Virus record (IMG/VR): IMGVR_UViG_3300037189_005284
Location: 1 to 40,931 of that record
From: a virus
Strand: one strand, 5' to 3'
Length of the DNA stretch: 40,931 nt
A program made the translations under genes and the position numbers. Below, in pieces: positions 921 through 39,581 of this stretch. How positions within the stretch are numbered: the first letter of the stretch is position 1; every line of letters starts with the position of its first letter. Under the pieces are notes generated by a model, which did no database searches, was not told where the DNA came from, and saw only the letters and a program-made list of their open reading frames with translations.

Positions 921-928
921 TATTTATT
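921..928 (-). promoter_or_regulatory. Weak candidate late promoter before gp13
   Basis: The minus strand reads AATAAATA here, one mismatch from the T4 late octamer TATAAATA. It lies 22 nt upstream of the gp13 ATG and overlaps the stop codon of the preceding gene. It would separate the neck genes from the fibre block. With one mismatch in AT-rich DNA it could be chance. Confidence 0.3.
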
Positions 929-6256: not shown

Positions 6257-7471
6257 CTAGGCATTCAGTCTTCTATTTATATCATCTATTTGTGCTTGTT
6301 GGTCTTTCAGTGCAGATATGAGTAAAGAAATAATCTGAACGTATGAGACTGTCTTAATATCGTCGTCTTTGGTATGGACAATTTCTGGTAGAATCTTTTC
6401 TACTTCTTGTGCTATCAACCCGAATGATTTGGTGCCGTCACTTTTCCATGTGAAACTGACAGGATTCAACTGGTTGAGGGTTATCATCGTATTGTGTAGC
6501 GGCTCTACATTTTCTTTCAATTTGATATCTGATACGTTATCAAAGTGAGTTGCAAATACTGTATTTCCTACTGACAAGCTTGATGAAATGTTTGCAGTAC
6601 CAATAACATGAAGATTTGAAGTTGGTGAGGTTGTACCAATACCTACGTTACCGCTATTGTCAATGCGGACCACTTCAACAGAAGCATTTGCAAACTGTGT
6701 ATTACCGCTACCTTTTACAACATTGAATCTATGGTCAGTAAATGCCGAATATAATAGTGACTGAGCTTGAGTTGGCATGGTTGGTGAACCAGAGGCTTGA
6801 ATCGTAGAAGACATCGTACTAGATAAATCAGAAGCTGTTGTTGTCCAGTTTATGACACCGTGAAATGTACCTGAACCCGCTGTTCTTGTAAACAAGATAT
6901 AAGGCGGTATACCACCAGTTCCAGTCTGTGTAAGATAAAATCTAGGTCCGTTAGTACCATGGCTGATTGTCATCTGGTTAGAAGATGGATTGAATGTTAA
7001 TCCATAACCAATATTGGCTTGAGCAAATGAACCTGAAGTATTACTCGACATAACAAGATATCTACTTGCAGAAACCGAATCGGTATATATTATAGCGCCG
7101 GCCCCGCCTGTATTAGCTTTATCAAAGGCGGCCGTGATATTACCGTTGGCTGTGTTTAATACCACACCATGCTGAGTGATGTTGGTATTGGCTGTAGTAA
7201 CCGCACCAGTAAGATTGGCTATGTTTGAAGTGATACCAGTGATGCTTGCATTTGCAGTAGTAACGGCACCAATGGCTGCGTTAGCTTGAGTGAAGGCTGC
7301 TACTGCTATGTTAGTGGTATTAGCTGAAAATGAAAGATTACCTGTACCGTCAGTGATAATCATATAGTCTGAAAGACCATTAGATGATGGTAGAGTAAGC
7401 GTTATCGTACCTGAGCTAGTAGATTTGATCGTTACGTTACCAGTAGCGGTATGGTCAAAATTTATAGCCAT
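6257..7471 (-). CDS. Tail fibre with S74 intramolecular chaperone
   Basis: This 404-aa fibre begins with a short beta module (FDHTATGNVTIKSTSSG, then TLPSSNGLSDYMIITDGTGN). A heptad-type coiled-coil stretch follows (about residues 52-125) with SNIANLTGAVTTANTNITQH, the same module used in the 1549-aa and 400-aa fibres. A globular region (about 130-275) includes YLVMSSNTSGSFAQANIGYG. The C-terminal S74 chaperone starts near residue 313 (SDIKLKENVEPLHNTM) and contains FGLIAQEVEKILPEIV and the final coiled coil. This S74 domain is clearly more divergent than those of the 856-aa and 400-aa proteins. The AUG follows a GGGG-containing leader. The role is host recognition, by inference from domain type and location. 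Confidence 0.85.
   Translation of the reverse strand: MAINFDHTATGNVTIKSTSSGTITLTLPSSNGLSDYMIITDGTGNLSFSANTTNIAVAAFTQANAAIGAVTTANASITGITSNIANLTGAVTTANTNITQHGVVLNTANGNITAAFDKANTGGAGAIIYTDSVSASRYLVMSSNTSGSFAQANIGYGLTFNPSSNQMTISHGTNGPRFYLTQTGTGGIPPYILFTRTAGSGTFHGVINWTTTASDLSSTMSSTIQASGSPTMPTQAQSLLYSAFTDHRFNVVKGSGNTQFANASVEVVRIDNSGNVGIGTTSPTSNLHVIGTANISSSLSVGNTVFATHFDNVSDIKLKENVEPLHNTMITLNQLNPVSFTWKSDGTKSFGLIAQEVEKILPEIVHTKDDDIKTVSYVQIISLLISALKDQQAQIDDINRRLNA
6274..6281 (-). promoter_or_regulatory. T4-type late promoter octamer
   Basis: The minus strand reads TATAAATA, a perfect match to the late-promoter element recognised by the gp55-type sigma factor in T4. It lies 37 nt upstream of the 105-aa gene, and the AGGAGGT ribosome-binding site falls between them. 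The spacing is normal, unlike at three other sites in this window. It sits inside the last codons of the upstream S74 fibre gene and would drive the 105-aa gene, the glycosyltransferase and the 856-aa fibre. Confidence 0.65.
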
Positions 7472-9901: not shown

Positions 9902-12900
9902 TTAGAGACCTCCAAAATTGTATGCGAGATAGATATTGCTACCAGTAGAACTACCACCAGAACTACCCGTATTGGCCTTCGTAAATGCTGCGTTGATGTT
10001 ACCGTTGGCAGTATTCAATGCACCAACAAGGTTGGCAATATTTGAAGTTATAGCAGTTATGCTAGTATTTATGGTATTGGCCACATACAAACCAGAGTTG
10101 GCTTGGTTAAATGCTGAGGTAATGTTACCATTAGCGGTGGTTAGAACCACACCATGCTGAGTGATACCAGTATTGGCATTTGTCACCGCACCAGTTAAGT
10201 TGGCCACATTCGAATTGACTATTACGATGTTGCTATTGATGGTATTGGCTGCATATAAACCAGAGTTGGCTTGGTTAAATGCTGATGTAATATTACCGTT
10301 AGCAGTGGTTAGTACTACACCATGCTGCGTTATACCCGTATTGGCTGTGCTGACTGCACCAGTAAGATTAGCTATGTTTGAAGTTATACCAGTGATGTTT
10401 CCGTTAGCAGTAGTAACGGCACCAATGGCAAGATTGGCCTGACCAAAGGCGGATGTGATATTACCGTTAGCAGTGGTTAGTACTACACCATGCTGCGTTA
10501 TACCAGTATTAGCGTTGGTTATCGCACCAGTAAGATTGGCTATGTTAGATGTGATGCCTGTAATATTGGTGTTGGTTGTTCCTACTGCACCTATTGCAGC
10601 ATTGGCCTGTGCAAAAGCTGATGTGGCATATCCATTGGCCGTAGTAACTGCACCTATTGCAGCATTGGCCTGTGCAAAAGCTGATGTGTCATATCCATTG
10701 GCCGTAGTAACTGCACCACTTAAATTGGCTACATTTGAAGTGAAACCGGTGATGTTGGTATTGGCCGTGCTGACTGCACCAATGGCTGCATTGGCCTGAG
10801 CAAAGGCACCAGTAGCATATCCATTGGCCGTAGTAACTGCTCCGATAGCAGAATTGGCCTGATCGAAAGCGCTCGTTGCATAACCTCTTGCTATCGTATC
10901 GACAGTGCCTCCACCGCCGCCACCTGCCAGTAGGTCGGTTCCTACCGAAGCATTGGCTGTAGAAAGATCGATGAAGACGCCACGATTATTGCCTGTAGTT
11001 TCAAAAATTCTTATCTTGTTGAGATATATGTCGATGGCAATAGGGCCGTTCAGGTTACCAGTTGGTGCTGCTGCAAGGTTGAGTTGACCGCCTTCACCGC
11101 CGCTGGCCTGTAATGATTGGAGAACACCATACGAAATAAGATCATTTGTAGTAGATAATGTACCGTTGAAAAATGCTCCTGATGTGTTAGGAAGAGCATT
11201 GTTCGCTTTGTTGAATGAGGCGGTTATGTTACCATTGGCTGTAGTGATTGCACCACCAAGGTTGGTGATGTTAAGGTTGGCGGCAGATATTGCACCAATG
11301 GCTAAATTGGCTTGACCAAAGGCACCTGTTATCCATGTGACAACATTTTGACCGTTCAGTATGATGTTGTTGGATTTGATAGATGCGTTTAGTACATCGA
11401 TGGTGAAGTTGTTACCAACGGGATCAATATGATTTGTGTTATACAGTAGAGCATCATCATAGTATTCATTAAATAGATACCATTCTTTATTTGCAGAATC
11501 GCGGAAAAGACCAGTGTGAACAATCTTGCTTCCAGTATTCAAGTAGTGAGCTATGAAACCAACATCAACTATATCTGAAGTGATGTTGTTATTGGCTAAT
11601 ATGATGATAGGGTCATCGATAACGACGTTATTGCTTGAATAAACTGTTGAATTGCCAGTAAAACTCAAGTTACCTTGAATGATAACGTCACCAAATATAG
11701 TACCACCATTTGCAGAATATCGAGTGTTGGCATAGTTGAAGGCGGCCGTGATGTTTCCGTTTGCAGTGGTTAGTACTACACCATGCTGGGTAATATTGGT
11801 ATTTGCCGTAACAAGAGCACCAGTGAGATTGGCTATGTTAGAGGTGATGCCAGTGATGTTTCCGTTTGCTGTGCTGATGGCTCCAATGGCAGCATTGGCC
11901 TGAGCAAAGGCACCAGTAGCATATCCATTGGCCGTAGTAACTGCTCCGATAGCAGAATTGGCCTGAGCAAAGGCAGAGGTTGCATAACCATTGGCAGTTG
12001 TGATAGCACCACCAAGGTTGGCTATGTTCGAGCTTATGCCAGTGATATTACTATTTGCTGAGGTGACGGCTCCGATAGCAGCATTAGCCTGAGCGAAGGC
12101 ACTAGTAGCATATCCATTAGATGTGACCACTGCACCAGTAAGATTGGCTATGTTAGAGGTGACGCCAGTAATATCAGTATTGGCTGTGTTAATAGCACCC
12201 AAAGCCAGATTAGCTTGAGTGAATGCCGAGACGGCATAACCATTGGCCGTTAATACTGCGCCGATGGCTGCATTAGCCTGTGTAAAGGCGCCAGTAGCAT
12301 AACTATTAGATGTAGTAATTGCACCACCAAGGTTGGCTATGTTTGAACTGGCACCAGTGATATCAGTGTTTGCGGTATTAATAGCACCAATTGCCAGGTT
12401 GGCTTGAAAAAATGCTAAGTTGGCTTGACCAAATGTTTGAGCAAAGGCATTTGCAATATAACCATTGGCCGTGGCTATGGCACCACCAAGGTTGGCTGCG
12501 TTGTTATTGGCAGTATTAATAGCACCAATCGCAAGGTTAGCCTGAGCGAACGAGGCTGATATGTTGGCATTGGCTGAGACAATAGCACCAATGGCCAGGT
12601 TAGCCTGAGCAAAGGCTGAGGTTGCATATCCGTTGGCTGTAGTGATAGCAGCACCAAGATTATCGGCATATGTATTGGCCGTTACAATGGCACCAATGGC
12701 TGCATTAGCCTGAGCGAAGGCCGCAGATATATTAGCATTGGCTGAAACAATTGCTCCAATAGCTGCATTGGCCTGAGTAAATGAGGCTGATATGTTGGCA
12801 TTTGCAGAAACAATAGCTCCAATAGCTAGGTTAGCCTGTGCAAAGGCACTTGTGGCATATCCGTTGGCTGTAGTGATAGCTGCGCCGAGGTTTGCAGCAT

Positions 12901-15148: not shown

Positions 15149-15156
15149 TATTTATC
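15149..15156 (-). promoter_or_regulatory. Candidate late promoter (GATAAATA)
   Basis: The minus strand reads GATAAATA, one mismatch from the T4 late octamer, inside the 70-bp gap that is the largest on the minus strand. It lies 26 nt upstream of the 112-aa gene and would start a transcript covering the giant fibre. The location in a real gap makes it more credible than matches inside genes. Confidence 0.45.
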
Positions 15157-32830: not shown

Positions 32831-33232
32831 CTATCTAATTCTTTCTAAGAAAATTGTTGATACAACTGGTTGTGCTGTATTCTTTATCGTATATCGAATC
32901 GTTGCATTATATCCGTTATGGTCATAATCAAAGTTCACATCGACATCAGTTACGGTAACTCTCGGCTCAAAGTTCGTGATGACCTGTAATATGGCATCTT
33001 TCAGTTGATTGGCCACCAATGAATTTGCTGGTTCGAATAGTAATTTGACCGCATTAGAACCAATATATGTTCTGAAAGGTCGATCATAGAAATTGGTCAA
33101 AACTAGATTGCGAACAGAACGCTTGATAGCATCGACACCAGTTTTTCTTACTACATCCTTTGTGGTCGGATGAGCAATAAAATCAAGGTCGAGGTCTGAG
33201 AAATCTGGGGTTCTTGTTACATTTACTGCCAT
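32831..33232 (-). CDS. 25: Baseplate wedge protein gp25
   Basis: This 133-aa protein is a clear gp25 (GPW_gp25 family; T4: 132 aa). It binds gp6 and gp53 at the centre of each wedge and starts sheath assembly. Conserved parts are DFSDLDLDFIAHPTTKDVVR, IKRSVRNLVLTNFYDRPFRT, LLFEPANSLVANQLKDAI and NFEPRVTVTDVDVNFD, which includes the EPR core motif. The start is fixed by the family length. A perfect TATAAATA ends 5 nt before the ATG, so a transcript from it would have almost no leader; an AAGG lies just before the octamer and could serve read-through mRNA. Confidence 0.95.
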   Translation of the reverse strand: MAVNVTRTPDFSDLDLDFIAHPTTKDVVRKTGVDAIKRSVRNLVLTNFYDRPFRTYIGSNAVKLLFEPANSLVANQLKDAILQVITNFEPRVTVTDVDVNFDYDHNGYNATIRYTIKNTAQPVVSTIFLERIR

Positions 33233-33237
33233 ATTGT

Positions 33238-33245
33238 TATTTATA
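33238..33245 (-). promoter_or_regulatory. T4-type late promoter octamer abutting gp25
   Basis: The minus strand reads TATAAATA in the 15-bp gap between the spike gene and gp25. Only 5 nt separate it from the gp25 ATG. With usual T4 late-promoter spacing, transcription would begin at or beside the start codon. An AAGG precedes the octamer, in the same layout as at gp4. Confidence 0.6.
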
Positions 33246-33247
33246 CC

Positions 33248-34312
33248 TTATGAGGATGGAGGTGGTACAGGTTTTGTTTGAATACGAGCCGCATCATCAG
33301 CGTCAGTAGTGACCATCTCACTGAACTGTGATGCACCAGCTGACATAGAAGGAGTATATTTTATTCCAGATCCATATAGGTGTAAAACTGAAGTGGCGGT
33401 CAGATATGCAAGACCACCGCTTTTAATACCAGTTGCAGAAGCACCATATATAGATGCTGTGTCGCCTGCACTAACTTTAATATTTTCTGTGGCCGATGCT
33501 GATATATTTTTACCTTGTAGCACCACCTCACTGGTCGCTGATAATGCTGAAAGTCTACCATATGATTTGAGCATTATCTTACCTAGATTTGACAAGACAG
33601 ACACATCATTCATACCTGCGAGCATTAGAGTATCACTCAATGATGCGGCAAGAAATGCGTATTTTGATTTTAACATCATTGCACCACCGACCGATTGAAT
33701 TGAAACCGAACCTTCAAATTTATCTGTCTTGCTCTTACCAATGGTATCAACTGCACCTCTAGCCGTTGTGTTAACATTGCGAGCCGTGATATTGAAATCT
33801 TCTTCTGCTGTCAGATTTACATTCTTGGCCTTAATATTATAATCTTGCTTGACTGTCAGAGAGGCTGCACCATCGACCGTGATATCTTGAGCACCAGAAA
33901 CATATATGCGGTTCTCACCGAAGGTGATCTGATACTGACCGTTCTGCGCTCTCAGGTGAACCACACCATCGGAACCCATCTGTATCATTGAACCAGTGCG
34001 GTGCTGTAGTGTTACACTCTCTGCACCTTTGGAGTCATCCATCATAAAGCTATGACCAGACCTGGTCTTATGGGTATAATAATTTGGGTATTTACCAGCG
34101 CCTTCTTTCTTACGAGCGTCTTCAGGACCATCCCATTTATTAGGTGTACTAGATGCAGATGCACCACCTTCAGCCTTACCAGCCGATTCAAATTTACCAT
34201 CAGCCGTATATGTGAATTTCTCTCCTGAACTACCAAAAGAAACGCTGTCACCAGCCACAAACTTCTGGTCTGGAAAGGCTGTCTTGATTGCTGCTGTAGG
34301 ATTATCTACCAT
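33248..34312 (-). CDS. Baseplate central spike, gp5 C-terminal beta-helix-like
   Basis: This 354-aa protein corresponds to the C-terminal part of T4 gp5, which forms the membrane-piercing beta-helix. Seen are HKTRSGHSFMMDDSKGAESV (about residues 77-96), typical of the spike entry of gp5 and VgrG proteins, then regular short beta-repeats (VDGAASLTVKQDYNIKAKNV, NLTAEEDFNITARNVNTTAR), and a glycine-rich distal part (HLYGSGIKYTPSMSAGASQF) ending in PVPPPSS. In T4 this part is joined to OB-fold and lysozyme domains and freed by cleavage; here it is its own gene, starting 5 nt after the OB-fold gene. A separate PAAR-type tip protein is not seen. Confidence 0.88.
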   Translation of the reverse strand: MVDNPTAAIKTAFPDQKFVAGDSVSFGSSGEKFTYTADGKFESAGKAEGGASASSTPNKWDGPEDARKKEGAGKYPNYYTHKTRSGHSFMMDDSKGAESVTLQHRTGSMIQMGSDGVVHLRAQNGQYQITFGENRIYVSGAQDITVDGAASLTVKQDYNIKAKNVNLTAEEDFNITARNVNTTARGAVDTIGKSKTDKFEGSVSIQSVGGAMMLKSKYAFLAASLSDTLMLAGMNDVSVLSNLGKIMLKSYGRLSALSATSEVVLQGKNISASATENIKVSAGDTASIYGASATGIKSGGLAYLTATSVLHLYGSGIKYTPSMSAGASQFSEMVTTDADDAARIQTKPVPPPSS

Positions 34313-34317
34313 TATTA

Positions 34318-35547
34318 TTACTCGAATATCTTTGTGAGAGGATTACCACCATTTACCACTTCTTTTATTCCATTCGACATTGCTGATGCGATACCAGACT
34401 GATTCAACAGAGTGCCGAGGGCGATAGCCTTTGCCATATCTCCAGCAGGTAATCTGTTAAACATCTTCATCATGGTGCCAGCCGAACCACCAAATAGATT
34501 AAGGCCTGGTATTGCACTAGGGAATCCACCCATTGCAGCACCAGCAAGCTTCTCTGCAACAGCCACGGCCGCGGGCGCGAGGGTCAGCATATCACCGCTG
34601 GTCGGATGAAAGCTCTGAAACTTAGTACCATACTGAGACTTCACAGGTATGATGGTTGATCCGTATGCGTCCATACCATGCAGACTACTATCGAATTGTA
34701 ATCTCTGAGAGGTGTGCATAACATCAGAAAGATTAGTGCATTGGACCAATAGATCAATTGCGTTGGCTGCGAATACATCTGGATTGACACGTCCTGATGG
34801 CATGAACCCTGCGCTCTCGCTATCCTCTACGGTCTGTAATAGCACCGACATACTGGTAAATGCAGCAAGCGCACCTGGATTCATTTTCTTATTGAGAATC
34901 TTCGCAAACTTTCTGGTGCCTGTGATGGTGTCGAATAGAGAACCAATTGATAATGCCACACCAGGCAGCTGGGCTAGTATGTCTGCACCAGGTATATTCA
35001 GTGTGCTTTCTATGGCTGTTGCGATACCTTTGACCTGTGGAATGATAGCTCCAGCCATTGGAAATAATGCTGCATGGGTTGGCAGACCTTTTGTCAGGTC
35101 ATGGCTATGTTCTTTCTGTTCGACAATCTTAAAGTTCTTGATACCGTCTTTAGATCCAGCCTGAATCTTAGGCGGAATCATTACACCAGTAGAGCGAGAG
35201 AATATGTGTGCGATGTTCTCTAATAGATCAGTAGCACCAGGTACCAGACTGTCGCGCTTATTCACATCATTGGCTAGGCCTACAATCTGGCATGAATTGG
35301 AGCCAGTATCTTTCATGCAGACAACCATCGAACCTGGATCTAATCCACCACTGAATGATTGCTGAGAATGTCTATCTGGTCCCATTAGTCTGGTGCTAAA
35401 GGCCAGATGTTTGATATCTACGTTCTTACCATGAATACCTGGGAAATATACTCTTACGTTACCACTCTGGTCGCCAGCAGGATCTTCCATGTCACCGCCG
35501 ACCACAATGCCATATACCATGCTACTCGCTGCTGAACCCTTAGGCAT
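34318..35547 (-). CDS. 5: Baseplate hub protein with gp5 OB-fold, no lysozyme
   Basis: This 409-aa protein has the gp5 N-terminal OB-fold at about residues 10-92 (VYGIVVGGDMEDPAGDQSGN, VRVYFPGIHGKNVDI, GLDPGSMVVCMKDTGSNSCQ, IVGLANDVNK). The remaining 300 residues are mostly helical and Gly/Ala-rich (MAGAIIPQVKGIATAIEST, ALAAFTSMSVLLQTVEDSES). I see no T4-lysozyme-type catalytic triad or other muramidase motif, unlike T4 gp5. The OB-fold should sit on the gp27-like trimer encoded just before it and carry the spike encoded just after. The function of the C-terminal part is unknown. Confidence 0.87.
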   Translation of the reverse strand: MPKGSAASSMVYGIVVGGDMEDPAGDQSGNVRVYFPGIHGKNVDIKHLAFSTRLMGPDRHSQQSFSGGLDPGSMVVCMKDTGSNSCQIVGLANDVNKRDSLVPGATDLLENIAHIFSRSTGVMIPPKIQAGSKDGIKNFKIVEQKEHSHDLTKGLPTHAALFPMAGAIIPQVKGIATAIESTLNIPGADILAQLPGVALSIGSLFDTITGTRKFAKILNKKMNPGALAAFTSMSVLLQTVEDSESAGFMPSGRVNPDVFAANAIDLLVQCTNLSDVMHTSQRLQFDSSLHGMDAYGSTIIPVKSQYGTKFQSFHPTSGDMLTLAPAAVAVAEKLAGAAMGGFPSAIPGLNLFGGSAGTMMKMFNRLPAGDMAKAIALGTLLNQSGIASAMSNGIKEVVNGGNPLTKIFE

Positions 35548-35549
35548 GA

Positions 35550-36776
35550 TTACACATCCTCCTTAGTAAATGTTCTCGCCACACAATCGATCTCAGTGGT
35601 AGAATATCCACCATTTAATATTCTATGATATAGATGGAGAATAAGATAATCACCACTGCCGTAATTTAATACTCTATAGCCACCCTTTGCGGCTTCTTTA
35701 TTGACAATCTCTGCTCTGATTACATTACCTGCATGAAGGGCCGGATTGAATGGTACTGTCATACGCAATGCGATTTTATCTTTTTCGAGCAGACCCATTC
35801 TGGCCTGACGCTTGAGTAGGTATTCTTTTGCATAGTCAGGGCAGCTATCTTGGTCTTTCGCACTGTTCTGATTTGATATAGCTGCCTTCATAACGGCTGA
35901 ACCATTACCACAACCACCCGCATCATCACCACCCATTAGACTGAATGTCTTATTGGCTGGATTGAATAGCATTATCGAATTGATGCTGTCACCTGCTCCA
36001 TTGATACCATTCAGAATATCAGAAAGAAGGTCGAAATCGCAAGGGAAAGAATATGAGAGTATTGAGTATGGATTGGCATAGGCATTATTCGATTCATTAA
36101 AGATGAACGTATATTTTGGTGACTGACGAGTGAGTGTGGCCAGTGAACGAAAATGATGGACGCCGCTGCTATTATTCAGGTATGTCATATAATGAAGGAA
36201 CGAAGGATCACTACCTCTAGCCAGAGCATAGCCAGCCTGTGCTGATACCACCTGAAACGGATGAACATTCTCTGCGATATAATCTCTGGCGGGATCAGAT
36301 TGTTCGATATCAGGGTTTTCAGCACCAACACATGAACCTAGCACATATTCTACAATCTCAGATGGTGGTACACATTTCCATGACTTACTGACCAGCGTCT
36401 TGGCATCTTCTAGCTGTGTGTCATGGCAGGCATGAATGATGAACTCTTCTGTGGTACCTCCAATTAATCTACGATTATCGATACGGTATATGGTCTGCGT
36501 GGTTATGAAATCTTCAGGTACACCTATCTGAGCCAAGACAGGCTTATTGATTTTAATTGTGATATCTTGTTCTTTATAGAGATTGAGATTCTTCACTGGT
36601 AGACCATGAAAATAACTATGCACCTTGACAGAGGTCTGAAGACCAGGTGTCAGAAGGCTTTCACCTAGCAGAACCTCACGAACTGTCAGGTCATAAGACT
36701 GGTCCGAAGTTATACCTTCAACATAGATGCCGATATTAGTGAGCGCATCAAATATTTCTGTTGATGTTTCTGACAT
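35550..36776 (-). CDS. 27: Baseplate hub protein, gp27-like
   Basis: This 408-aa protein (T4 gp27: 391 aa) lies between gp53 and the gp5 OB-fold gene and has the features of a hub trimer protein: LTVREVLLGESLLTPGLQTS near the N-terminus, then KEQDITIKINKP, CVPPSEIVEYVLGSC, FHYMTYLNN-type central strands, and the C-terminal MTVPFNPALHAGNVIRAEIV, GSGDYLILHLYHRILNGG, and TTEIDCVARTF. A longer reading frame opens at 36851, but the start at 36776 is preferred: it follows the gp53 stop by 1 nt and has a GAGGTG ribosome-binding site 9 nt upstream. Direct identity with T4 gp27 is low, so the name rests on position and domain style. Confidence 0.82.
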   Translation of the reverse strand: MSETSTEIFDALTNIGIYVEGITSDQSYDLTVREVLLGESLLTPGLQTSVKVHSYFHGLPVKNLNLYKEQDITIKINKPVLAQIGVPEDFITTQTIYRIDNRRLIGGTTEEFIIHACHDTQLEDAKTLVSKSWKCVPPSEIVEYVLGSCVGAENPDIEQSDPARDYIAENVHPFQVVSAQAGYALARGSDPSFLHYMTYLNNSSGVHHFRSLATLTRQSPKYTFIFNESNNAYANPYSILSYSFPCDFDLLSDILNGINGAGDSINSIMLFNPANKTFSLMGGDDAGGCGNGSAVMKAAISNQNSAKDQDSCPDYAKEYLLKRQARMGLLEKDKIALRMTVPFNPALHAGNVIRAEIVNKEAAKGGYRVLNYGSGDYLILHLYHRILNGGYSTTEIDCVARTFTKEDV

Positions 36777-36777
36777 A

Positions 36778-37458
36778 TTATAGTACACCTCTGATATATG
36801 GTATCTTAGAGGCGCCTGTATAATTATCAAACTGATTGAGAATATATCCATAATATTCTGGTTTGATAATCTTGATTTGTCTCTTTGCCTCGTTCACTTC
36901 AAGCTCGTAGTCGTAATTGCTGATAGCTGATTTCGTGATGGTTTCTTTGACAGACTTACCATTCACCACATATGTAGTCACGGTGCTAGATGCCATATCT
37001 GTATAGTTATCGTATGGTGTGGTCGTGGTTGCCTGAGAGGCGGCATCAATGATGATTCTCTGAATAGTTGTGGTCTGCGTCGCGTTATCTAGTCTGGTAA
37101 TTATCTTCTCATAGTGATGATAGGTGGTCTGAGATAGTGCAATCGAACCATACTTGTTAGCAACATAGTTATTGAAGTCATTATATCCTAGAGGCCATTG
37201 ACTCACTGGATCGATAATGTCATTCGCATAAAGGATCATCCAGTGTGCTTCAGGATCTTTATAGAGCTTCTCTGCAAGGATTTCTGGTTTGTCACCTTCG
37301 GTGATGAGGTACACGAAATAGGCGGATAAGTTGTTTAAAACCTCTCTAACCATTCTCATGCGTAGAAAGATATTGGTTACGGCCTGGTACTCAGAACTAT
37401 TCGGTACGCGATTGATATCGTATGGTATTTTAGGAAATTTACCAAAATAGTTTGACAT
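36778..37458 (-). CDS. 53: Baseplate wedge protein gp53
   Basis: This 226-aa protein matches gp53 (T4: 196 aa), the wedge component that joins wedges to the hub with gp25 and gp6. The N-terminal half carries the family pattern: FGKFPKIPYDINRVPNSSEY, NIFLRMRMVREVLNNLSAYF, EGDKPEILAEKLYKDPEAHW and MILYANDIIDPVSQWPLGYN. The C-terminal half is more variable and ends with ANEAKRQIKIIKPEY-like VNEAKRQIKIIKPEYYGYIL. An AGGGG ribosome-binding site precedes the ATG, 3 nt after the gp48 stop. Confidence 0.92.
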   Translation of the reverse strand: MSNYFGKFPKIPYDINRVPNSSEYQAVTNIFLRMRMVREVLNNLSAYFVYLITEGDKPEILAEKLYKDPEAHWMILYANDIIDPVSQWPLGYNDFNNYVANKYGSIALSQTTYHHYEKIITRLDNATQTTTIQRIIIDAASQATTTTPYDNYTDMASSTVTTYVVNGKSVKETITKSAISNYDYELEVNEAKRQIKIIKPEYYGYILNQFDNYTGASKIPYIRGVL

Positions 37459-37461
37459 GTA

Positions 37462-38529
37462 TTAGAACCCCTGTAGAACTCTGCGCTTGTGCAGAATCTC
37501 TGTTTCTCTGAAGGCCATGCTCAGTACTGTAGCCACAGGATAGCCATTAGTGAAAGTAGAATAGATACCGCCTGTAGGTGCATAATCGACAGCAATGCTT
37601 TCTAGCACACAGGTATTGATTCGTGGAATATTGGTATTCTCTTTACCTCTGGTGAAGAAGGTGATATCAAACTCTGATGGTGGTATGAATGTTGGAATAA
37701 ACCCTAGTAGCGTCTCAACCTCAGGTGCAGCATGGAATCTGAGCGTGTCAATAATTCTCTTAATTGCAAGCGATTCGGTCTGATTCTTAGGTGCCATCAG
37801 AAATTCAAATATGAACTGTCTCTGAGGTGTACCTGTATAGAGAACCTCCATTCTTGGATTGATAGGGAAACCTAGCAACGATGAGGCTTGACCAATTGTC
37901 TTGGCTGCACCACCTATCATACCAATTAGATTACCGATGGTCGCTGCGCCTCCTGCACTACCAGCTATCATACTACCACCAAAACCAACACCGATGGCAG
38001 CAGCCTTGGCACCAAATGCAGTGAGTGATACCTCATCATATTTATTTTCGTGAGTATATTTGGCCTGTGCAGGCATAAATAATGCGATTGATGCTGCTAT
38101 TCTTCTGGTGCTACGCTTTATGGATCCAAATTCTCTTAAATTTCCACGACTACTCGATACTGGCCCTGCGCCAGGACCACTAGATACTGGTTCTGCACCA
38201 GCATTGAATTTCAGATTGTCTACCTTAGAATATTCATTGGTCAAAACCTTGGTGCTCACATCAATATTGAGACCAGGTGCACCTTGCTGGCTAGCAGAAC
38301 TGTACGCACTTCTCGATTGACCTTTGTAAGTAGGTACATTGATATTGATGACTATATAATGTCCGTGATAGTCGGCTGAAAGGTCTTCTGGGAAAACATG
38401 CGAAGTGAAATTGTACTCACCTTGAGCCAAACCATTTCTATCTTGTGACGGATCATTACTCGTATCAATCGTTGTAGCAAGGTTTCCAATAAAACCTGTA
38501 AACTCATCCCATGTAGGAAAATCGGGCAT
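37462..38529 (-). CDS. 48: Baseplate tail-tube cap gp48
   Basis: This 355-aa protein (T4 gp48: 364 aa) is the tube cap protein that sits on the hub and starts tail-tube growth. Evidence is the C-terminal tail-tube-like fold with RQFIFEFLMAPKNQTESLAI, RFHAAPEVETLLGFIPTFIP, PSEFDITFFTRGKENTNIPR and CVLESIAVDYAPTGG, plus a central hydrophobic Gly/Ala-rich stretch (FGGSMIAGSAGGAATIGNLI, about residues 180-215). It is the first gene of the long minus-strand run. GGAG lies 11 nt before the ATG, and a perfect TATAAATA lies 30 nt before it. Confidence 0.9.
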   Translation of the reverse strand: MPDFPTWDEFTGFIGNLATTIDTSNDPSQDRNGLAQGEYNFTSHVFPEDLSADYHGHYIVININVPTYKGQSRSAYSSASQQGAPGLNIDVSTKVLTNEYSKVDNLKFNAGAEPVSSGPGAGPVSSSRGNLREFGSIKRSTRRIAASIALFMPAQAKYTHENKYDEVSLTAFGAKAAAIGVGFGGSMIAGSAGGAATIGNLIGMIGGAAKTIGQASSLLGFPINPRMEVLYTGTPQRQFIFEFLMAPKNQTESLAIKRIIDTLRFHAAPEVETLLGFIPTFIPPSEFDITFFTRGKENTNIPRINTCVLESIAVDYAPTGGIYSTFTNGYPVATVLSMAFRETEILHKRRVLQGF

Positions 38530-38553
38530 TTATTATTGAACTCCAAAATAAGG

Positions 38554-38561
38554 TATATATA
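38554..38561 (+). promoter_or_regulatory. Candidate plus-strand late promoter (TATATATA) before gp4
   Basis: TATATATA differs from the late octamer by one base and ends 5 nt before the gp4 ATG, with an AAGG just before it. This is the same layout as at gp25. It overlaps the minus-strand octamer by two bases, so the two promoters would exclude one another. Confidence 0.4.
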
Positions 38562-38567
38562 TTTATA
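38560..38567 (-). promoter_or_regulatory. T4-type late promoter octamer for the baseplate operon
   Basis: The minus strand reads TATAAATA, a perfect late-promoter match. Transcription would start near 38,554 and give a leader of about 25 nt with GGAG before the gp48 ATG. It overlaps the first base of the gp4 start codon on the other strand. It is the most likely entry point for the whole minus-strand structural run. Confidence 0.7.
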
Positions 38568-39007
38568 TGGCATACAAAGGCAAATTCTCACCTAAGAACC
38601 CCAGCAAATACAAAGGCGATCCAACGGGCATTATCTATCGCTCGCTATGGGAACGTAAACTCATGGTCTATTTAGACGAAAATATCAACGTGCTAGAATG
38701 GTCTTCGGAAGAAATGGCTATACCATATCGGTCACCAGTAGACAATAAAATTCACAGGTATTTCCCAGACTTCATTGCAAAGCTTAGAAACCCTGATGGT
38801 ACCGTAAAGACATTGATGCTAGAGGTCAAACCAAAGATCCAGACCAGAGAACCCAAGATACCTACCAATAAGAAGACCAAGAGATATATCACTGAGGTAA
38901 TGACATGGGGTGTCAATCAAGCCAAATGGAAATCAGCCACTGAATACTGTCTGGATAAGGGATGGGATTTCAAACTCATCACCGAAGATGAACTAGGTAT
39001 AAAGTAA
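38567..39007 (+). CDS. 4: Head completion protein gp4 with nuclease-like core
   Basis: This 146-aa protein (T4 gp4: 150 aa) completes the packaged head before tail joining. The N-terminus (FSPKNPSKYKGDPTGIIYRS) and LWERKLMVYLDENINVLEWS match the family. It has the layout of a PD-(D/E)xK nuclease fold similar to TnsA: E29 in the first helix, P67-D68 (HRYFPDF), then E86-V-K88 (LMLEVKPK). Whether it cuts DNA is not known from sequence alone; trimming or sensing the packaged DNA end is plausible. The gene leads the plus-strand group, and its only visible ribosome-binding site is an AAGG 13 nt before the ATG. Confidence 0.92.
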   Translation: MAYKGKFSPKNPSKYKGDPTGIIYRSLWERKLMVYLDENINVLEWSSEEMAIPYRSPVDNKIHRYFPDFIAKLRNPDGTVKTLMLEVKPKIQTREPKIPTNKKTKRYITEVMTWGVNQAKWKSATEYCLDKGWDFKLITEDELGIK

Positions 39008-39061
39008 TTCATATGATCGATGGCATACCTGTTATAGCACACTGGCAAGCCCTTGGCAACA

Positions 39062-39069
39062 TATAAATA
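39062..39069 (+). promoter_or_regulatory. T4-type late promoter octamer before the 168-aa gene
   Basis: TATAAATA on the plus strand, in the 67-bp gap after gp4, is a perfect late-promoter match. It ends 5 nt before the ATG of the 168-aa gene, so the transcript would start near that ATG. No good ribosome-binding site is seen between octamer and ATG. Confidence 0.6.
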
Positions 39070-39074
39070 GACTT

Positions 39075-39581
39075 ATGGTACTCATAGCAAACAAACAACA
39101 AGATTCGACTGATTGGTTCGTAGGTAAAGCCACCTCTGCGGCTGGCTACCGAAAGAAGCTCGTCTCTAATGAAGAACGTGGTCGTGATGGTGCAGTCATC
39201 GGCCGCATGTACTTCTTCTATTATGATCCAAAGCACAAGAAGACCTTACCCATGTACGACAGGTTCCCTTTGGTATTCCCAATTGAACCATACACTGATG
39301 GATTCTTAGGTCTCAACCTGCACTATATCTCACCAGGTGAACGAGCCTGGTTGATTAGCAAGCTATCTGAATTTCGCACCAGCAATAACATGTCAGATAA
39401 GACCAGACTCAGACTGACATATGACCTGTTGAGCAGCTCCAAGAAGCTGGCCAAGACCACAAGACCATGTGTCAAGCGATATCTATTCTCCCATGTACGC
39501 AGTAAATTCATAGAAATTGTTCCCAGTGAATGGCAGAAGGCTATCAATTTGCCTGTGGCCATGTTCGAACATAACGGATAA
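39075..39581 (+). CDS. Conserved T4-like virion protein, possibly DNA end protector gp2
   Basis: This 168-aa protein is basic and has the segments STDWFVGKATSAAGYRKKLV, MYFFYYDPKHKKTLPMYDRF (residues 45-64), PLVFPIEPYTDGFLGLNLHY and YLFSHVRSKFIEIVPSEWQK. The DPKHKKTLPxYDRFPLVFPI core is widespread in T4-like environmental phages, where I believe it is sometimes annotated as gp2, the DNA end protector; T4 gp2 is longer (274 aa), so the name is uncertain. Its place beside gp4 fits, since genes 2 and 4 are neighbours in T4. The start is set by the first ATG, 5 nt after a late-promoter octamer; the next Met (residue 45) would remove conserved sequence. Confidence 0.75.
   Translation: MVLIANKQQDSTDWFVGKATSAAGYRKKLVSNEERGRDGAVIGRMYFFYYDPKHKKTLPMYDRFPLVFPIEPYTDGFLGLNLHYISPGERAWLISKLSEFRTSNNMSDKTRLRLTYDLLSSSKKLAKTTRPCVKRYLFSHVRSKFIEIVPSEWQKAINLPVAMFEHNG

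Follow-up and report, generated by a model that had tools for sequence, protein, structure and literature searches.

The window, that is, the whole stretch of DNA analyzed here, is a 40,931-base IMG/VR fragment of a T4-type phage, and our subject is the late-promoter octamer lying 5 nucleotides (nt) before the start codons of three of its genes, gp25, gp2 and gp4. The T4 core virion genes of the window are arranged in the order of the Pelagibacter phage HTVC008M, as in an HTVC008M-like T4-type phage (Kyanoviridae). The baseplate cluster begins with gp48 and gp53 and continues to a gp5-like gene, gp25, gp6, gp7, gp8 and a gene for 2031 amino acids (aa), which occupies the position of the VrlC gene of HTVC008M. 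Judged by gp25 and gp6, the closest isolates are the Melnitz phages, HTVC008M and Mosig (approximately 38-47% identity), and the source is an uncultured T4-type group akin to the phages infecting the ocean bacterium SAR11. HTVC008M, Mosig and RHph_I1_18 infect alphaproteobacteria. Below, k denotes the number of nt from the end of the octamer to the ATG, TATAAATA is the perfect octamer and NATAAATA its relaxed form. The features around the three start codons are as follows.

33238..33245, minus strand: late-promoter octamer of gp25, TATAAATA, 5 nt 5' of the ATG (33232)
33233..33237, minus strand: gp25 spacer ACAAT, 5 nt; the predicted +1 by T4 numbering is the next base, the A of the ATG
32831..33232, minus strand: gp25, baseplate wedge gene (phrog_261, 7e-41), predicted to be leaderless
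33246..33249, minus strand: AAGG overlapping the TAA stop of the gene upstream of gp25, not conserved as a distant Shine-Dalgarno (SD) sequence
39062..39069, plus strand: late-promoter octamer of gp2, TATAAATA, 5 nt 5' of the ATG
39070..39074, plus strand: gp2 spacer GACTT, 5 nt; the predicted +1 is the A of the ATG
39075..39581, plus strand: gp2, DNA end protector gene, 168 aa (phrog_429, 6e-46), predicted to be leaderless
38554..38561, plus strand: TATATATA, imperfect octamer (one mismatch) with the 5-nt spacer TTTAT before the gp4 ATG, of doubtful function
38567..39007, plus strand: gp4, head-closure gene (phrog_218, 2e-59)
38560..38567, minus strand: perfect TATAAATA, leadered late promoter of gp48, covering the first base of the gp4 ATG
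38541..38544, minus strand: GGAG, SD sequence within the gp48 leader
37462..38529, minus strand: gp48, tail-tube cap gene (phrog_230), the leadered contrast

The initial annotation had placed an octamer, exactly 5 nt and an ATG at gp25, gp4 and a 168-aa gene, the last being gp2, and all of these coordinates proved correct, as did the AAGG directly 5' of the octamer at gp25 (33249-33246) and gp4 (38550-38553). The motif TATAWATA-N5-ATG matches the window three times, exclusively at these genes, against a mean of 0.12 over 100 dinucleotide shuffles, none of which reached three. The octamer by itself is not enriched (4 observed vs. 3.5 expected). The enrichment concerns the placement of the octamer before an ATG, not the number of octamers.

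We fetched 160 IMG/VR loci around gp4 and gp25 and measured k from each NATAAATA to the first ATG of a long open reading frame (ORF). The distribution of k was bimodal: 13 sites were found at k = 4, 80-91 at k = 5 and one at k = 6, followed by two at k = 7, one at k = 8 and none from k = 9 to k = 12, and then by a second, broad peak of leadered sites at k = 18-35. No such spike appeared with four permuted octamers, for which five of 1930 sites fell at k = 5. When the ORF requirement was dropped, 86 ATGs were found at k = 5, and 85 of them opened an ORF of at least 60 aa; at the same position GTG opened no ORF and TTG a single one. The spacers are diverse, with 70 distinct sequences in 103 sites at k = 5 (31 for gp25 and 29 for gp2), so that length rather than sequence is maintained, and their composition at 85 k = 5 sites is mostly A and T. 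Because the loci were collected around gp4 and gp25, these two genes are over-represented in the counts; the whole-genome scans described below agree with the locus-based result. The 5-nt spacing is thus enriched among the relatives, the opposite of the outcome that the initial annotation named as speaking against its proposal. As a separate observation, the first base of the octamer (L004-L163) was C in 39, A in 30, T in 21 and G in 11 leaderless sites vs. T in 75, A in 25, C in 11 and G in 7 leadered ones.

The short spacing is specific to certain genes. In the related loci, gp25 was leaderless in 48 cases and leadered in two (k = 4-6 in 48 of the 51 with an upstream octamer), and gp2 was leaderless in 38 and leadered in one (38 of 41). 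The counts for gp48 were 0 leaderless and 52 leadered (leadered in 52 of 53), those for gp8 0 and 12, and those for gp26 0 and 6. The larger genomes repeat this pattern: gp2 stands at k = 5 in HTVC008M, Mosig, Melnitz and two IMG/VR contigs, and the octamer-bearing genes found for the major capsid, scaffold, tube and sheath are leadered with k = 20-38. No high-copy gene was leaderless in the genomes examined, with copy number classed as in T4. A rule by which leaderless genes are those of low copy number is one-sided at best, as the low-copy gp48 and gp8 are mostly leadered, and we rejected it.

The spacing is also specific to lineages. Scanning whole genomes, we counted sites at k = 4-6 (leaderless) against those at k = 12-45 (leadered). 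T4 had none of the former and 30 of the latter, 26 of which carry an SD; Syn9 had 0 and 17, and S-PM2 had 1 and 25. HTVC008M had nine leaderless and six leadered sites (SD in 6/6), and the corresponding counts were 6 and 21 in Mosig, 3 and 18 in Melnitz, and 4 and 14 in RHph_I1_18. Seven of the nine leaderless starts of HTVC008M coincide with the coding sequence starts chosen by the depositors, and the other two lie outside the stretch of annotation examined. For gp25, all 20 sites were leadered in S-PM2-like loci (80 loci taken), and all 16 distinct sites were leaderless in HTVC008M-like loci (at least 73% identity). In a quick and rough gp25 tree, 51 of the 54 members of the clade of the window were leaderless, and the trait would require approximately 10 changes overall. 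Outside gp25 and gp2, the 5-nt arrangement was found at gp48, the tape-measure gene and csgF of HTVC008M, at gp3 of Mosig and at gp4 in several IMG/VR loci. A separate set of gp25 sites (L308, L309, L316, L319, L332 and Mosig) has k = 7-9, for which the implied leader is approximately 2-4 nt, that is, nearly leaderless.

In T4 late-promoter numbering, the first base of the octamer is -13 (PMC2988020). The octamer then spans -13 to -6, and therefore +1 falls on the A of the ATG at k = 5; at k = 6 it falls on the last base before the ATG. The position of an SD is taken up by the octamer (-13 to -6) at leaderless sites, the 5 nt before the start contain no SD-like tetramer in any of 101 leaderless sites, and none of the 101 leaderless genes has an in-frame downstream start with an SD. 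In leaderless genes, the 5' coding end is unusually unstructured, its 45 nt having a folding energy of -2.0 kcal/mol compared with -5.2 kcal/mol for internal stretches (p = 1e-12). Within a single gene, leaderless gp25 also differs in this respect from the leadered gp25 of cyanophages, for which 7 sequences were compared (p = 5e-5). Two alphaproteobacteria studied in depth have many leaderless mRNAs (375 in Caulobacter, PMC4117421; 171 in Sinorhizobium, PMC3616915). The Caulobacter leaderless mRNAs have an unstructured 5' coding end (PMC4117421), and leaderless mRNAs prefer AUG (PMC9031893), which begins all 171 of those of S. meliloti (PMC3616915). The phage sites resemble these host mRNAs in the 5' AUG, the lack of an SD and the displacement of the unstructured region into the coding sequence. 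They differ in that the alphaproteobacterial cases are host genes and promoters with mapped 5' ends, whereas here the promoter is a phage late promoter and the 5' ends are inferred.

Altogether, the late promoters of gp25 and gp2 are very probably a leaderless form of the T4 type that is specific to this lineage. Comparison of the sequences brings out a fixed spacing, specificity for gene and lineage, an ATG-only start, no SD and an unstructured 5' coding end; the transcription start, recognition by a gp55-type sigma and leaderless translation are steps that we infer. At the two genes, the octamer would act as a late promoter of the T4 type, recognized by the host RNA polymerase with the help of a gp55-like late sigma, transcription would begin at the A of the start codon to yield a leaderless late mRNA, and ribosomes would engage the 5'-terminal AUG directly, without an SD. 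Other late genes of the same genomes, including those for high-copy head and tail proteins, retain ordinary leadered late promoters, mostly with an SD. For gp25 and gp2, the comparative evidence lends good support to the idea of leaderless or nearly leaderless late mRNAs; for gp4 the case is weak. A match to sigma-70 region 2, with a score similar to that of the sigma of T4 itself, was found in HTVC008M, Mosig, Melnitz and the IMG/VR contigs G002 and G003.

Several points weigh against this proposal. The spacing is not universal: at gp25, k is 8 in a Mosig-like group and 16 in Melnitz. No sigma match was found in G001 or RHph_I1_18, and none is visible in the window, which is a fragment. The literature searched yielded no mapped 5' end for these phages. 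Many of the counted loci share kinship, and neither the counts nor the folding p-values represent independent events. Finally, gp4 does not follow the 5-nt rule cleanly.

Among the known systems, the T4 late promoter (TATAAATA; gp55/gp33/gp45) shares with the window the octamer, an A/T-rich stretch downstream, the virion genes served and the often opposed strands. T4 differs in having no late-type octamer 4-6 nt before an ORF-opening ATG and in its leaders, which by the present count measure at least 12 nt. The cyanophages S-PM2 and Syn9 (PMC2984593) likewise have the relaxed octamer NATAAATA upstream of T4-type late genes but place it mostly 15-39 nt from the ATG. HTVC008M comes closest: the deposited start codons of its gp25 and gp2 likewise follow the octamer at exactly 5 nt, and it shares the gene order gp25-gp6-gp7-gp8-VrlC-like; it differs in extending the 5-nt octamer to further genes, and its gp25 is just 43% identical to that of the window. 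The window also has leadered sites away from the genes discussed so far, which are listed below.

15149..15156, minus strand: GATAAATA, leadered site of a 112-aa gene, 26 nt 5' of its ATG
6274..6281, minus strand: TATAAATA, leadered site of a 105-aa gene that has the SD GGAGG, 37 nt 5' of its ATG
921..928, minus strand: AATAAATA, leadered, 22 nt before the ATG of a 247-aa gene (155-898)

One alternative, which we somewhat favor, applies to gp4 only: the minus-strand promoter of gp48, which overlaps the gp4 start, would give rise to the plus-strand TATATATA as a by-product. In the window, the perfect minus-strand TATAAATA overlaps the gp4 ATG and lies 30 nt upstream of the divergent gp48. Of 74 distinct gp4 loci, 50 have a minus-strand NATAAATA no more than approximately 20 nt from the gp4 start; it often covers the ATG (TATTTATATG) and is positioned as the leadered promoter of gp48. 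No locus in which it overlaps the ATG has a NATAAATA on the plus strand 4-6 nt before gp4. Only 8 of the 74 carry one at that distance, and the plus-strand octamer varies at this position (TCTATATA, TATATATA, CATATATA, CATACATA, CAAATATA). On the other hand, gp4 can own such a promoter, as L005 has a separate plus-strand AATAAATA-N5-ATG and another clade has TATAAATA-N4/5-ATG, and the gp4/gp53 divergence of T4 has face-to-face late promoters (TATAAATA). We regard the site at gp4 of the window as more likely not a leaderless promoter. We also considered TATATATA as an independent octamer and set it aside; 6 of its 33 sites are at k = 5 and, judging by the sequences, are presumably gp4 starts. 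At the gp4/gp48 divergence of one clade (L039, L056, L062, L063, L077 and L079), CTAAATA substitutes for NATAAATA and is mirrored on both strands, each copy lying at the start codon of the opposite gene (clearest in L062).

According to the initial annotation, the AAGG before the octamer could give one gene two modes of translation, with a leaderless mRNA from the late promoter and a read-through mRNA translated from this distant SD. We consider this unlikely, as AAGG is not conserved. It is present at gp25 and gp4 of the window, and SD-like tetramers just 5' of the octamer are somewhat more frequent among leaderless sites (17/101) than among leadered sites (3/118) or the remainder (9/149), but AAGG itself directly precedes the octamer in one of the 101 leaderless sites, and in 83% of these sites the 12 nt upstream of the octamer contain no SD-like tetramer. 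Such an SD would moreover lie at least 13 nt from the AUG, and at gp25 the AAGG is shared with the stop codon of the preceding gene. If anything, the layout points the other way, to a read-through mRNA without a usable SD, the translation of which may therefore need either its own late promoter or coupling to the upstream gene. Gene e of T4 (PMC3014915) is comparable in that its late-promoter and read-through mRNAs differ in translatability; there, the difference is due to an inhibitory hairpin with a retained ribosome-binding site, not to the loss of a leader. T4 gene 25 has a conserved stem at the initiation region and an unusual translation start (PMC3014915), and therefore gp25 appears translationally odd in both lineages. 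In our set, T4 gp25 is L164 45405-45803.

Slightly less credible still is that the A/T-rich octamer is no promoter at these genes and instead enhances translation, or provides an unstructured region, in mRNAs that begin further upstream. This would suit the frequent position of gp25 and gp2 close behind a gene on the same strand, and bacteria do have unstructured starts without an SD. However, in the same genomes other late genes carry the identical octamer at 18-35 nt, hardly any site falls between the two classes, and the permuted A/T octamers gave no spike. That the arrangement is a functionless junction frozen by shared ancestry, or chance, is very improbable: the loci are indeed related and most of the counted sites belong to gp25 and gp2, but the spacers vary widely at a fixed length and the arrangement recurs at the other genes of HTVC008M, Mosig and several IMG/VR loci named above.

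A possible link, which is not required, exists between translation without an SD and the ribosomal protein bS21, encoded by HTVC008M (91237-91392, plus strand), Mosig (9983-10132, minus strand) and Melnitz (35461-35619, plus strand). It was not found in T4, the cyanophages searched, G001, G003 or RHph_I1_18. As a required enabling factor bS21 was rejected, because the last three lack it yet have promoters at 4-6 nt.

T4 late transcription is a textbook system in which the mRNAs carry leaders with an SD, and the firing of T4 late promoters is coupled to DNA replication. HTVC008M and Mosig were both isolated on a cultured host. One possible, though less likely, reading is that control passes from the ribosome-binding site to the promoter: with the SD position occupied by the octamer, gp2 and gp25 would be translated only from RNAs that begin at their own late promoters. 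If so, promoter firing would gate the translation of these assembly proteins, and the high-copy gp23, gp22, gp19 and gp18 would keep their leaders. A published attempt at predicting late promoters in pelagimyophages failed (PMC7029224), and one possible reason is that some of the promoters may abut the ATG. The literature searched, which did not cover the Syn9 transcriptome, contained no report of leaderless late mRNAs from T4-type phages, and a prior mention is possible. A group of T4-type phages appears to make chosen late genes leaderless by fixing the spacing from promoter to AUG. From this pattern follows a simple rule by which start codons and late promoters of uncultured T4-type phages can be called.

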